Shown here: positions 1,362 through 18,974 of the stretch, in pieces
Layout: each line of letters begins with the position of its first letter
Numbering within the stretch: the stretch's first letter is position 1
Source: Bifidobacterium breve
GTDB lineage: Bacteria > Actinomycetota > Actinomycetes > S36-B12
Direction: 5' to 3'
Assembly: GCA_945870085.1 (NCBI GenBank)
Contig: CAMBQX010000003.1
Span: forward strand, 1-32,633
Length of the DNA: 32,633 nt
Program-made: the position numbers and the translations under genes
The notes under the pieces: model-generated
What the model saw: only the letters and a program-made list of their open reading frames with translations
Databases searched by the model: none
Told to the model about the DNA's origin: nothing

Positions 1362-1745
1362 TCACCCGCGCGCTGCCGGCAAATTCGTGCCCGCCAGGGC
1401 AAGCAGCGCTCCCTCGACCAGGGCTAGCTCTCGCTGCAACTGCAAAAATCGGGCACCCGCCGCCTCAAATCCTTGTTGTGCGGTTGCTACTTCAGCCGCG
1501 GTCAGCAGTGGGCCTAATTCCACCCGCGCCTGTCCGTAAGCCCTCCTAGCGCCATTTAGGCCACCCTCGGCGTAATGGATTAGGTAGCGAACTAAAGCCA
1601 GCGGCAGGGTGCGCAAAACCGATGAGCGAAGGTCTGGGGGGCCCTGGTCGAGTAACCAAGGCACCACTCGCTCCGCGAACTCGCTCGAGCCCGGGGGCGC
1701 CAACTCCCGGGGCCAACCCGGTGGCGTGCGGCCCCGGTCGATCAC
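1362..1745 (-). CDS. conserved actinobacterial hypothetical protein
   Basis: 127-aa ORF; its GTG start overlaps the aconitase TGA stop (GTGA). PxxWPxE...AVxWLLDxxPPDxR...-like pattern that I recall from actinobacterial hypotheticals. Confidence 0.7.
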
Positions 1746-4396
1746 AGCAGTGAGCGTAGGACGTACTGCAAAATGCCGCCGTGCCGGTAGTAGTCCGCCT
1801 CACCCGGGGTATCGATTCGAACCGAGGCTGCGAATTCGACCGTGCGTCCATCCGCGGCGACGGCTTCAACTGCGACTTGAGCCGGCGTGCGGCCCGAATT
1901 GAGTTCGGCGATCCCCCTGACGGTGAAAACTTCATCACCCTGCAGACCAAGACTTGAAGCGCTCACCCCGGGGGCATATTGCAATGGCAATACACCCATT
2001 CCGATTAAATTTGATCGATGTATGCGCTCATAGGACTCAGCGATAACAACGCGGACACCCAATAACGCCGTCCCCTTGGCCGCCCAGTCACGGCTCGACC
2101 CTGATCCATATTCCTTACCCGCCAAAATAACCAGCGGGGTTCCATGGCGCTCGTACGCCATCGCGGCGTCATAAATCGGAACGATTTCGTCATCCGCATT
2201 TGTGAAATCAATGGTGAACCCACCCTCAACATCGTGCAATAGCAGGTTCCGCAACCTGATATTTGCAAAGGTGCCGCGAATCATAACCTCGTGGTTTCCG
2301 CGTCGAGATCCATAGGAGTTGAAATCAGGCCGTTGAACGCCATTTTCAGCTAGATAAATACCGGCGGGACTGTCAGGCCTAATTGATCCAGCGGGTGAGA
2401 TGTGATCGGTGGTAACGGAATCCCCAAGTTTTAAGAGAACGCGCGCACCCGTGATATCAACCACCGGGCTTGGCTCCCGTTGCATACCGTCAAAATATGG
2501 AGGCTTGCGCACATAAGTACTTGCTGGATCCCATTGGAAAGTATCACCACTTGGTGTCGCAAGTGAGCGCCAATTCTCGTCGCCGGTGAAAACATTCGAA
2601 TATCGATTTGCAAACATCTGCGCATCGATTGATTCATCCACCACGCGCTGAACCTCGCGGGCACTTGGCCAGATATCGGCAAGGTATACCGGCTCACCAG
2701 CGGGATCGATCCCTAAGGCCTCATTTTGAATGTCAATATCCATGGTGCCAGCGATTGCATAAGCGACCACCAGGGGAGGTGAAGCTAAGTAGTTCATCTT
2801 AACATCGGGACTGATCCGGCCTTCGAAATTGCGGTTGCCGCTGAGCACCGCGGTAACCGCAAGATCATGCTCATTGATTGCAGTGCTGACTTCGGGTATT
2901 AATGGGCCCGAGTTGCCGATACAAGTTGTGCAGCCGTAACCAACCGTTCCGAAGCCCAACTTATCGAGATACGGAGTAAGACCAGCTTTGTCGTAGTAGT
3001 CGGTTACGACCTTAGAGCCAGGTGCCAGTGTGGTTTTAACCCAAGGCTTACTTTGTAACCCGCGTTCAACAGCATTCTTTGCGAGTAACCCAGCCGCGAT
3101 CATTACTGACGGATTCGATGTATTCGTACAGGAAGTTATCGCGGCTATCACCACCGCGCCATGCCCCATAACTACCGAATCCTCGGCCAGGGAGAACTCG
3201 ACCGTAGTGTCAGGGGACTTCGTGTAGTCAGCCAAGGCCGCGCCAAACATTGCTTTAGCGTCGGCGAGAGGAACACGGTCTTGCGGACGCTTTGGCCCCG
3301 CCAAGCTCGGCACCACGGTTGCCAAATCTAATTCAATGTATTCAGAGTAATTTGGCTCACAATTCGGGTCGTGCCACATGCCTTGAGCTTTCGCGTACGC
3401 GGCAACTAGCGCACATTGCTGCTCACTGCGCCCGGTCAGGCGCAGGTACTCCATGGTCATTTCGTCAATCGGGAAGATCGCAACGGTGCTGCCGTACTCG
3501 GGGCTCATATTTCCGATGGTTGCGCGATTCGAAAGCGGGACTGCACCAACTCCTTCGCCAAAGAACTCGACGAACTTGCCGACCACCCCATGCACCCGCA
3601 GCATCTGGGTAATTGTCAAAACTAGATCGGTGGCGGTCGCACCCTGCGGAAGTTCACCCCGCAATTTGAAACCAACGACGCGTGGGATCAACATTGATAC
3701 CGGCTGGCCCAGCATTGCGGCTTCCGCCTCAATGCCACCTACACCCCAACCGAGAACTCCCAGCCCATTGACCATGGTGGTGTGTGAATCCGTGCCGACG
3801 ACGGTATCCGGATACGCCTGGCCGCCGCGGGCCATTACGACATGGGCCAAATACTCAATGTTCACCTGATGAACGATGCCGGTACCCGGTGGCACCACCT
3901 TGAACTCATCAAATGCACTTTGACCCCAACGTAAGAACTGGTACCGCTCGCGATTGCGTTCATATTCAAGTGCAACATTGCGTGACTCGGCGTCTGGAAC
4001 CGCGAAGAAATCAGCAATTACGGAGTGGTCGATTACCATTTCTGCGGGAGCGAGTGGCTCAATTCGTGACGGATCGCCGCCAAGTTCAGCAACCGCCTCG
4101 CGCATTGTTGCAAGATCAACCACCACCGGCACTCCGGTGAAATCTTGCATGATCACGCGTGCCGGCGTGAAAGAGATTTCCTGGTTAGGTTCAGCACTTT
4201 GATCCCATGCACCAAGTGCTCGGATCGTCTCGGCCGTGACATTGGCGCCATCTTCGGTGCGCAGGAGATTCTCGAGGAGGACTTTGTGGGTGTAGGGCAG
4301 TTTCGCAGATCCGGGTACCGCCTCGATGGCAAATATTTCGAATTGCTGCCCGCCCACGGTCAGGACTCGCTTCGCTCCGAAACTGTTTTTACTCAC
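1742..4396 (-). CDS. acnA: aconitate hydratase
   Basis: 884 aa; contains [68 protein letters not shown] and [14 protein letters not shown], all aconitase hallmarks. GTG start with GGAGG upstream. Confidence 0.98.
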
Positions 4397-4412
4397 TGGG
4401 GCCTCCGAAAGT

Positions 4413-4430
4413 TATCTTGACATCAAGATA
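4413..4430. promoter_or_regulatory. perfect 18-bp palindrome TATCTTGA-CA-TCAAGATA, candidate operator of acnA
   Basis: Read directly from sequence; 8+2+8 inverted repeat located 17 bp upstream of the acnA start and containing the stop codon (4423-4425) of the upstream methyltransferase gene. Confidence 0.6.
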
Positions 4431-5646
4431 TCTGATCGTGACCCGGGATGGGCACCAGGGTGGCCACCACCTCGACGTGGTGCGTCATTGGAAAAGCATC
4501 AAAACCAGTAATTTTGTCCAGCCGGTAACCGAAGGTGTAAAAGATCGCAACATCACGTGCGAGGGCTACTGGATCACAAGCTACATAGACCACCACACGG
4601 GGTTCTTGGGCGGCAATCTGCCGAGCAATGACCCGCCCGACACCGGTGCGTGGTGGGTCAAGGACCACCCCCGATACGAGTCCATGATCGGTAGCTTTCG
4701 CCAACCACCTTGCAACATCGCTTTCCACCAATTTGACCTGGTGATCATGTTGCAGGTTGCGCCGGGCATCGCGGACCGACCGTGCAGACCCTTCAACCGC
4801 CACCACCAAGCCATTTGGCCCAACAGCCGAACTCAGATAACCGCTAAATAGCCCAACACCCGAATAAAGATCCCACCAGGTTTCACCAGGTTGTGGGTTT
4901 CCCAAGTCAAGAACCGCCCGAACTAACGCCTCCGCGGCGCCAACATGACCCTGCCAAAAGCTTTCGATATCGATATTCCAATTGCGGCCGAGTACTTCTT
5001 GATTTACTCGGCGACTACTTGTTGATCCGGATGCGGCATTCGAGATGACAAGCTCGCCATCTGAGCCCTGCGCCGAACGCACTTCCAAAACTCCAGGGTA
5101 TGTGCTTTCCGGGACTGCTCCTTGGCCTTGAGTGGCAATCAGGCAGGTATTGACGGGCAGAATCTCGCTACTGCGAAAACGGTGGAAACCGAGGTGGCCC
5201 GAACTATCAACACTCCAGCGCACTCGCGTGCGCCACGAAAGTCCACTTTGATCCCCCGGCACCGACTCGACAACAACTTCTACCTCATTAAGGCCCGCAT
5301 GCCGGCGAAATGCATCTTTCACCACCTGCTGCTTAAATGCGCGTTGCCGCGCAAGAGCAATATGTTGGAAATCGCATCCGCCGCAGGCTCCCGGCCCGGT
5401 AAATTCACACGGTGCTGTCACCCGGTCGGGGCTCTTAACCAAAATCTTGATAGCGTCGGCTCGTACCATCTTGGATCGGACTTCGGTAATTTTAATCCTT
5501 ACAGATTCACCGGTAATTGCATGCCGGACAAATATTGTGCGGCCCTGCGCATGTGCAATGAAGTGTCCGCCGTGTGCGATCTGCCCAATAGTTACTTCGA
5601 GTACATCACCGACCGCAAGCGGCACCTCGCTTGACTTACTCGTCAC
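4423..5646 (-). CDS. class I SAM-dependent RNA methyltransferase, TrmA/RumA family with TRAM domain
   Basis: 407 aa; N-terminal TRAM-like region, CEFTGPGACGGCDFQHIA cluster, LYSGVGLFSGYL SAM motif, VVLDPPRTG and VYVACDPVALARD. Confidence 0.92.
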   Translation of the reverse strand: MTSKSSEVPLAVGDVLEVTIGQIAHGGHFIAHAQGRTIFVRHAITGESVRIKITEVRSKMVRADAIKILVKSPDRVTAPCEFTGPGACGGCDFQHIALARQRAFKQQVVKDAFRRHAGLNEVEVVVESVPGDQSGLSWRTRVRWSVDSSGHLGFHRFRSSEILPVNTCLIATQGQGAVPESTYPGVLEVRSAQGSDGELVISNAASGSTSSRRVNQEVLGRNWNIDIESFWQGHVGAAEALVRAVLDLGNPQPGETWWDLYSGVGLFSGYLSSAVGPNGLVVAVEGSARSVRDARRNLQHDHQVKLVESDVARWLAKATDHGLVSGVVLDPPRTGVGRVIARQIAAQEPRVVVYVACDPVALARDVAIFYTFGYRLDKITGFDAFPMTHHVEVVATLVPIPGHDQIS

Positions 5647-18398: not shown

Positions 18399-18974
18399 CT
18401 AACGCAGCCGTGCCGCGGTCGCCTGGGAGAGAGCCGAAGCAAACGCTAGTGCTTGGGCTACGACGTCGGCACCGTCCGCAACTTCGGATACCCGTACTGA
18501 AAGGTCATCATTACTAGATGTTCCGGTGTACCCGTGCTCTGCATCGCACTGCGGATCACCACAACTAGCTGGCTCCAAATCGATTCGACTTACGGCGCCC
18601 CAGCCGATGGTTAAAACAACCTCCGAAGTCGCTCCACCTGGTTGATACTTGGCAGGCTCACTTACCACTCGGGTGACAACCACCGAGTCCACCCGCTCAA
18701 GACGCACCGCTTCAGTTGAAGCGGTAGCGAATGGCATTGGGTTGATCTCGTCAATGCCATGCTCATCAGTGTGGCCGACAATTAGTCGTGTTGGCGTTAG
18801 GGCCAGCACCGTAACGTGGCGTCTCAACTCGTCATGGTCAAAAGTGGCTTCGTGGTGCACCAGATATGACTTAAGCGGCTCCCCCGCCAATGCCGTATCC
18901 AGCGCATCTGCGACCAAATCGGGGTAGTAGCCGCTGCGCTGAATATCGGTGCGGAGTTGCTGGTCAAGGCTCAT
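18399..18974 (-). CDS. DUF5998-like conserved protein
   Basis: MSLDQQLRTDIQRSGYYPDLVADALDTALAGEPLKSYLVHHEATFDHDELRRHVTVLALTPTRLIVGHTDEH; GATAAT-N6-ATG supports 18974 over 19022. Confidence 0.85.
   Translation of the reverse strand: MSLDQQLRTDIQRSGYYPDLVADALDTALAGEPLKSYLVHHEATFDHDELRRHVTVLALTPTRLIVGHTDEHGIDEINPMPFATASTEAVRLERVDSVVVTRVVSEPAKYQPGGATSEVVLTIGWGAVSRIDLEPASCGDPQCDAEHGYTGTSSNDDLSVRVSEVADGADVVAQALAFASALSQATAARLR

Follow-up and report, generated by a model that had tools for sequence, protein, structure and literature searches.

A Conserved Palindrome Upstream of acn in a Small-Genome Aquatic Actinobacterium, a Probable TamR Operator

Introduction

In Streptomyces coelicolor the MarR-family regulator TamR represses aconitase and other genes linked to the TCA cycle, and citrate and trans-aconitate release it (PMC5487221). 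Streptomyces encodes both TamR and the related PecS, and TamR answers citrate-type compounds and not urate (PMC6391409). PecS, in contrast, is encoded divergently from pecM and is urate-responsive. The targets of the S. coelicolor TamR regulon include tam, tamR itself, sacA and other TCA-cycle genes. Malate dehydrogenase and isocitrate dehydrogenase are reportedly among the targets described in a paper of 2015 on TamR of this species. A similar role is held in Corynebacterium by a protein of a different family, the TetR-type AcnR, which represses aconitase and controls acn in C. glutamicum (PMC9936768).

The transcriptional control of central metabolism has hardly been described in uncultivated small-genome actinobacteria. 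In this work a palindrome located before the aconitase gene of a small-genome aquatic actinobacterium was compared with its counterparts in relatives and across the phylum; very probably it serves as the operator for a TamR orthologue, a MarR-family protein of the UrtR/PecS-like branch, which would regulate aconitase. The comparison yields a concrete, putative three-site circuit and a motif predicting TamR targets across the class. As far as found, a TamR operator is new to this lineage and the regulon is of a known kind; a search of the available literature for the letters of the motif found no paper.

Results and Discussion

The Palindrome between rlmD and acn

The window (the whole stretch of 32,633 nt that was analysed) carries on its minus strand acn, encoding an aconitate hydratase AcnA of 884 aa and proposed as the regulated gene (1742..4396), and upstream of it, on the same strand, a gene for a 23S rRNA (uracil-C5)-methyltransferase of 407 aa (4423..5646). 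A sequence-only reading of the window had labelled this gene TrmA-like, a label that was not retained, the RlmD/RumA model TIGR00479 being the best one (209 bits, cut-off 183.6); the gene is called rlmD-like below.

The proposed TamR operator, TATCTTGACATCAAGATA at 4413-4430, is a perfect 8-2-8 inverted repeat of 18 bp with a 2-nt centre, TATCTTGA-CA-TCAAGATA, to which no strand is assigned and which reads TATCTTGATGTCAAGATA in the direction of acn. The minus strand runs toward acn as GATCAGA-TATCTTGATGTCAAGATA-ACTTTCGGAGGCCCCA-GTG. The TGA that ends the rlmD-like gene (4423..4425, minus strand) corresponds to palindrome positions 6-8 and lies 26 nt from the acn GTG at 4396, and the Shine-Dalgarno GGAGG of acn, as read from the letters, is found at 4402..4406 on the minus strand, 6 nt downstream of the palindrome. 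The perfect 18-bp palindrome, the stop codon within it, the 26-bp gap and the placement 5' of the Shine-Dalgarno had all been pointed out in the sequence-only reading, and they agreed with the sequence and the gene coordinates.

The palindrome was rejected as significant by itself. Two perfect 8-2-8 palindromes occur in the window (4413-4430 and 18707-18724), and base-shuffled windows contained a mean of 0.63, with at least one in 43% of them; since a single palindrome is within chance, its significance must come from recurrence. The second palindrome, CCGCTTCAGTTGAAGCGG, lies within a DUF5998 gene and is probably a product of chance.

Conservation in Relatives

The relatives were 99 genomes from the genus, the family and the order, and the order contains a family with genomes of 1.2-2.0 Mb. 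The perfect TATCTYGAYRTCRAGATA was found in 51 of them in at least one copy, often two, and a reversed control pattern was found in none. The 76 readable perfect sites, from about 50 relatives, were located beside acn (47), mdh (20) or the marR gene (6), the other three being truncated by contig ends and adjoining rlmD. When seven acn loci from within the genus were compared, all 16 arm positions were invariant, as against 57% of 90 upstream coding positions (a third of the third codon positions there) and 20% of 20 downstream positions. This pattern of invariance is what a binding-site footprint would leave, and it is conservation, not palindromicity, that appears to mark a genuine operator. 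The earlier reading had been staked on the palindrome being kept in sister genomes despite its overlap with coding sequence, and on the motif being present in relatives and at other genes; it survived both comparisons.

In one relative (G063) one contig starts and another ends with the same 18-mer (L119:1-18 and L120:1502-1519), the assembly having broken at the acn palindrome. At loci of genus g2 and its relatives (L094, L097 and L100) the acn operator is followed after a few bases by a second, imperfect copy of the motif (e.g., gataccttgacgtcaagaaa), which suggests tandem sites in genus g2.

Copies in the Own Genome

The genome to which the window belongs is an assembly of 1.78 Mb in 224 contigs and is 79% complete, so that further targets may be missing. 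It contains exactly two copies of the perfect 18-mer, one before acn and one on contig 64 before the malate dehydrogenase gene, behind which the NADP isocitrate dehydrogenase gene follows after 55 nt; the single site may serve mdh and icd together, and these are the genes that here carry the operator as TCA-cycle targets of a TamR regulon. A third copy, AATCTCGACGTCAAGATT, with 16 of 18 matches, lies 19 nt before a MarR-family gene of 166 aa. A scan for the motif before TCA-cycle genes and a marR gene had been proposed from the sequence alone, and in this genome it was found at both. The occurrence of a palindrome of the same type before aconitase, and of a site before tamR itself, as in an autoregulated gene, are features shared with the S. 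coelicolor TamR regulon.

One-mismatch cores (13 in this genome) were considered as extra targets and set aside: those examined were mostly within coding sequence, and just one, 81 nt before an HMG-CoA-lyase-like gene, was plausibly placed.

On contig 48 (segment L005:798-1538) tamR is preceded by a FasR-like TetR gene and by an ORF resembling a fatty-acid desaturase, and its operator starts one base past the TetR stop codon, which recalls the tight packing at acn. This position of tamR behind a FasR-like TetR gene, the possible sharing of a single site by mdh and icd, and the overlap of the acn operator with an upstream stop codon are differences from the S. coelicolor regulon.

Identity of the Regulator

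The product of the MarR-family gene (P0003) showed 66% identity to the Streptomyces regulator encoded divergently from trans-aconitate 2-methyltransferase, of which it is an orthologue, and paralogues of about 44% identity fell outside the TamR orthologue group and are plausibly PecS. Its best matches among solved structures were the 8ylf and 8ylh entries, followed by HucR, the 8ylh group being PecS (8YLI, 8YLJ). These matches are shared with the UrtR/PecS/HucR/MftR branch of the MarR family, as is the (T/S)SGT DNA-contact element, present in the regulator as VTSGT/VSSGT. No pecM-like gene was seen among the viewed neighbours of P0003. The close named relatives of the regulator came from Actinomycetota MAGs (98% and 89% identity) and from 'Candidatus Nanopelagicales' MAGs (67-69%). 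Together with the presence in the order of a family with such small genomes, these relatives make a placement in Nanopelagicales likely.

In genus g37 (genomes of 6-11 Mb), which we take to be Streptomyces, each genome has one perfect site, TATCTCGACATCGAGATA, which immediately follows a TAGAGT hexamer and lies some 128-156 nt upstream of aconitase, and the MarR orthologue is divergent from trans-aconitate 2-methyltransferase (353 bits, curated cut-off 320), with palindromes between the two genes. The arms of the acn site are TCTCGA in Streptomyces and TCTTGA here. A divergent tam-tamR pair together with a site of at least 15/18 was present in 56 of 80 named loci, mostly from Streptomyces; the divergent tam is absent from many of the non-Streptomyces loci among them and was therefore treated as lineage-specific and not as defining for the operator. 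No good site was found before tamR in some other families of the class. The TamR-like reading proposed at the outset was thus upheld by a motif located at TCA-cycle and marR genes and by a MarR gene orthologous to the tam-divergent Streptomyces regulator. We infer TamR binding, repression and ligand by transfer from the S. coelicolor protein, the presumed link to which is drawn from orthology, synteny and reviews.

Co-Occurrence of Motif and Regulator

Among the 99 relatives the orthologue and the motif were found together in 49, the orthologue only in 11, the motif only in two and neither in 37 (Fisher p = 9e-15, shared ancestry ignored). Over 397 genomes across the phylum, the motif was present in 33 of the 36 with the orthologue and in none of the 361 without it (Fisher p = 4e-45, shared ancestry ignored). 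Six of the 11 orthologue-only genomes have a readable acn start, and all six keep 16-17 of 18 matches before acn. TamR-negative genomes have 9-13 matches there, with the sole exception of G074, which has a 17/18 site at acn, yet just a distant MarR match. Sites in the absence of a detected TamR occur in G038 and G045, both of them drafts whose congeners carry the gene. Both TamR states occur in each of the genera g7 and g11, and within each genus the acn site goes with the regulator, so that joint loss of TamR and its operator probably occurred more than once; such repeated loss would offer a natural experiment in regulon decay.

These distributions bear on a second candidate of the sequence-only reading, AcnR, that is, on the view that a different regulator binds the site and that its co-occurrence with TamR is indirect. 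A regulator of this type does control acn in Corynebacterium and a TetR gene adjoins tamR in the own genome, but this gene is FasR-like, no TetR-family match turned up immediately downstream of acn, and the presumably mycobacterial family f10 lacks the motif. AcnR was dropped on these three grounds; moreover, the motif tracks the MarR orthologue over the 397 genomes and precedes that gene itself, and binding by a regulator other than TamR is considered very unlikely.

Targets in the Rest of the Class

Genomes elsewhere in the class contained 37 perfect sites, 32 of them before acn and one before tamR. The other four lie before an NADP isocitrate dehydrogenase of the type present in the own genome, a monomeric isocitrate dehydrogenase unrelated to it, a methyltransferase of unclear type whose score against the Tam model, 51 bits, is far under the cut-off, and an MFS transporter. 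The sharing of the operator by two non-homologous isocitrate dehydrogenases argues that it follows the function of the pathway over the common descent of a promoter. The perfect site in G359 (L193:1512-1529) lies 12 nt before the sub-cut-off methyltransferase, which could be a diverged trans-aconitate methyltransferase. That in G410 (L144:1501-1518) lies 18 nt before the MFS gene (L144:220-1482, minus strand), which could be a further TamR target, for example a transporter of organic acids.

No trans-aconitate 2-methyltransferase above the curated cut-off was found in the own genome or in the 99 genomes of the order, and TamR appears here as a regulator of the TCA cycle without its namesake gene tam. 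The nearest tam genes of the order, with 290 and 292 bits, were found in two genomes of the TamR-negative genus g14 (L232 in G055 and L233 in G028), the reverse of the TamR-positive genera.

The variety of genes preceded by the motif is also relevant to a function of the palindrome as RNA, in which a hairpin would terminate or stabilise the rlmD transcript or control the translation of acn. Folding of the transcribed strand gave a hairpin (-19.4 kcal/mol, z -3.1) adjoining the Shine-Dalgarno, part of which is paired, but folding as RNA is common to any DNA palindrome, neither a U-run nor a terminator call was found at this one, mdh, tamR and icd genes that have no rlmD upstream are preceded by the same 18-mer, and the distance from site to start codon varies from 12 to about 170 nt. 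In addition, tamR and some acn sites have the transcribed-strand arms TATCTCGA/TCAAGATA, with C opposite A, and the retention of such sites disfavours action at the RNA level. By this strand asymmetry, the missing U-run and the presence at unrelated genes, a terminator or RNA hairpin was rejected, leaving it the slightest probability of all the explanations considered.

Promoter Geometry and Proposed Mechanism

Among 41 acn representatives, hexamers of the form TANNNT gave 28 hits starting at -10 to -5 and one at -22 to -11, the count at -5 being inflated because the first T of the palindrome completes the hexamer. This placement points, for many lineages, to a -10 element adjoining the operator and to a transcription start inside the latter, where a bound dimer would block initiation. 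In the window a promoter scan found no consensus promoter at acn; a weak candidate -10 element, CACGAT, is located at 4435..4440 on the minus strand, in the register where some other lineages carry TANNNT, and the geometry in the own genome is likely one of initiation block.

Alternatively, bound TamR might act mainly against read-through from rlmD into acn, as a roadblock or insulator, without blocking an acn promoter. The location of the site in the window's family (f1) at the very end of rlmD, 26 nt from acn, where no strong promoter is visible, would suit such a role, but in many other lineages the TANNNT hexamers lie just before the palindrome, and no rlmD lies upstream of the mdh and tamR sites. 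From these two observations promoter control is probably the shared mode, and a roadblock is unlikely, though less so than the binding of another regulator.

With promoter control by TamR as the preferred mechanism, a dimer would occupy the 18-bp dyad, which lies directly 5' of the ribosome-binding site and would abut or overlap the acn promoter, and prevent transcription initiation at acn. When citrate, cis-aconitate or trans-aconitate accumulates, for instance after damage to the iron-sulfur cluster of aconitase, the ligand would loosen TamR, with joint derepression of acn, the mdh-icd unit and tamR.

The Operator-Encoded Stop Codon

Among the 47 acn loci whose rlmD could be read, 25 have as the stop codon of this gene the TGA at palindrome positions 6-8, in a single register, and all 25 belong to family f1; in lineages outside it, the stop of rlmD normally precedes the palindrome by tens to hundreds of bases. 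In the TamR-negative genera g8 and g14 rlmD still stops at the corresponding TGA and the palindrome has decayed (TACCTTGAGGGCACGTGA, TACGTTGAGAGCAGTTAA, TAAGTTGACGTCCACAGA). The simplest reading is that the fusion of operator and rlmD arose early in family f1 and that the stop persisted once the operator had lost selection. With a stop codon supplied by the operator, this is a clear instance in which a binding site constrains the end of a protein.

A wider view, which is speculative and which we hold to be rather doubtful, is that the older core task of TamR was to control aconitase, isocitrate dehydrogenase and malate dehydrogenase by feedback, tam being a later addition or repeatedly lost, and that the rlmD-fused operator is a dual-purpose element, writing a stop codon while the bound repressor may affect the transcription leaving rlmD, and turning into a stop-codon fossil after loss of the regulator.

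The rlmD-like gene of the window ends with ATA TCT TGA (Ile-Ser-stop), its stop codon and nearly all of the last two codons forming the left arm of the palindrome. With 45 of 389, ATA is used least among the isoleucine codons of the window, and its scarcity is consistent with a constraint at the DNA level on the end of rlmD.
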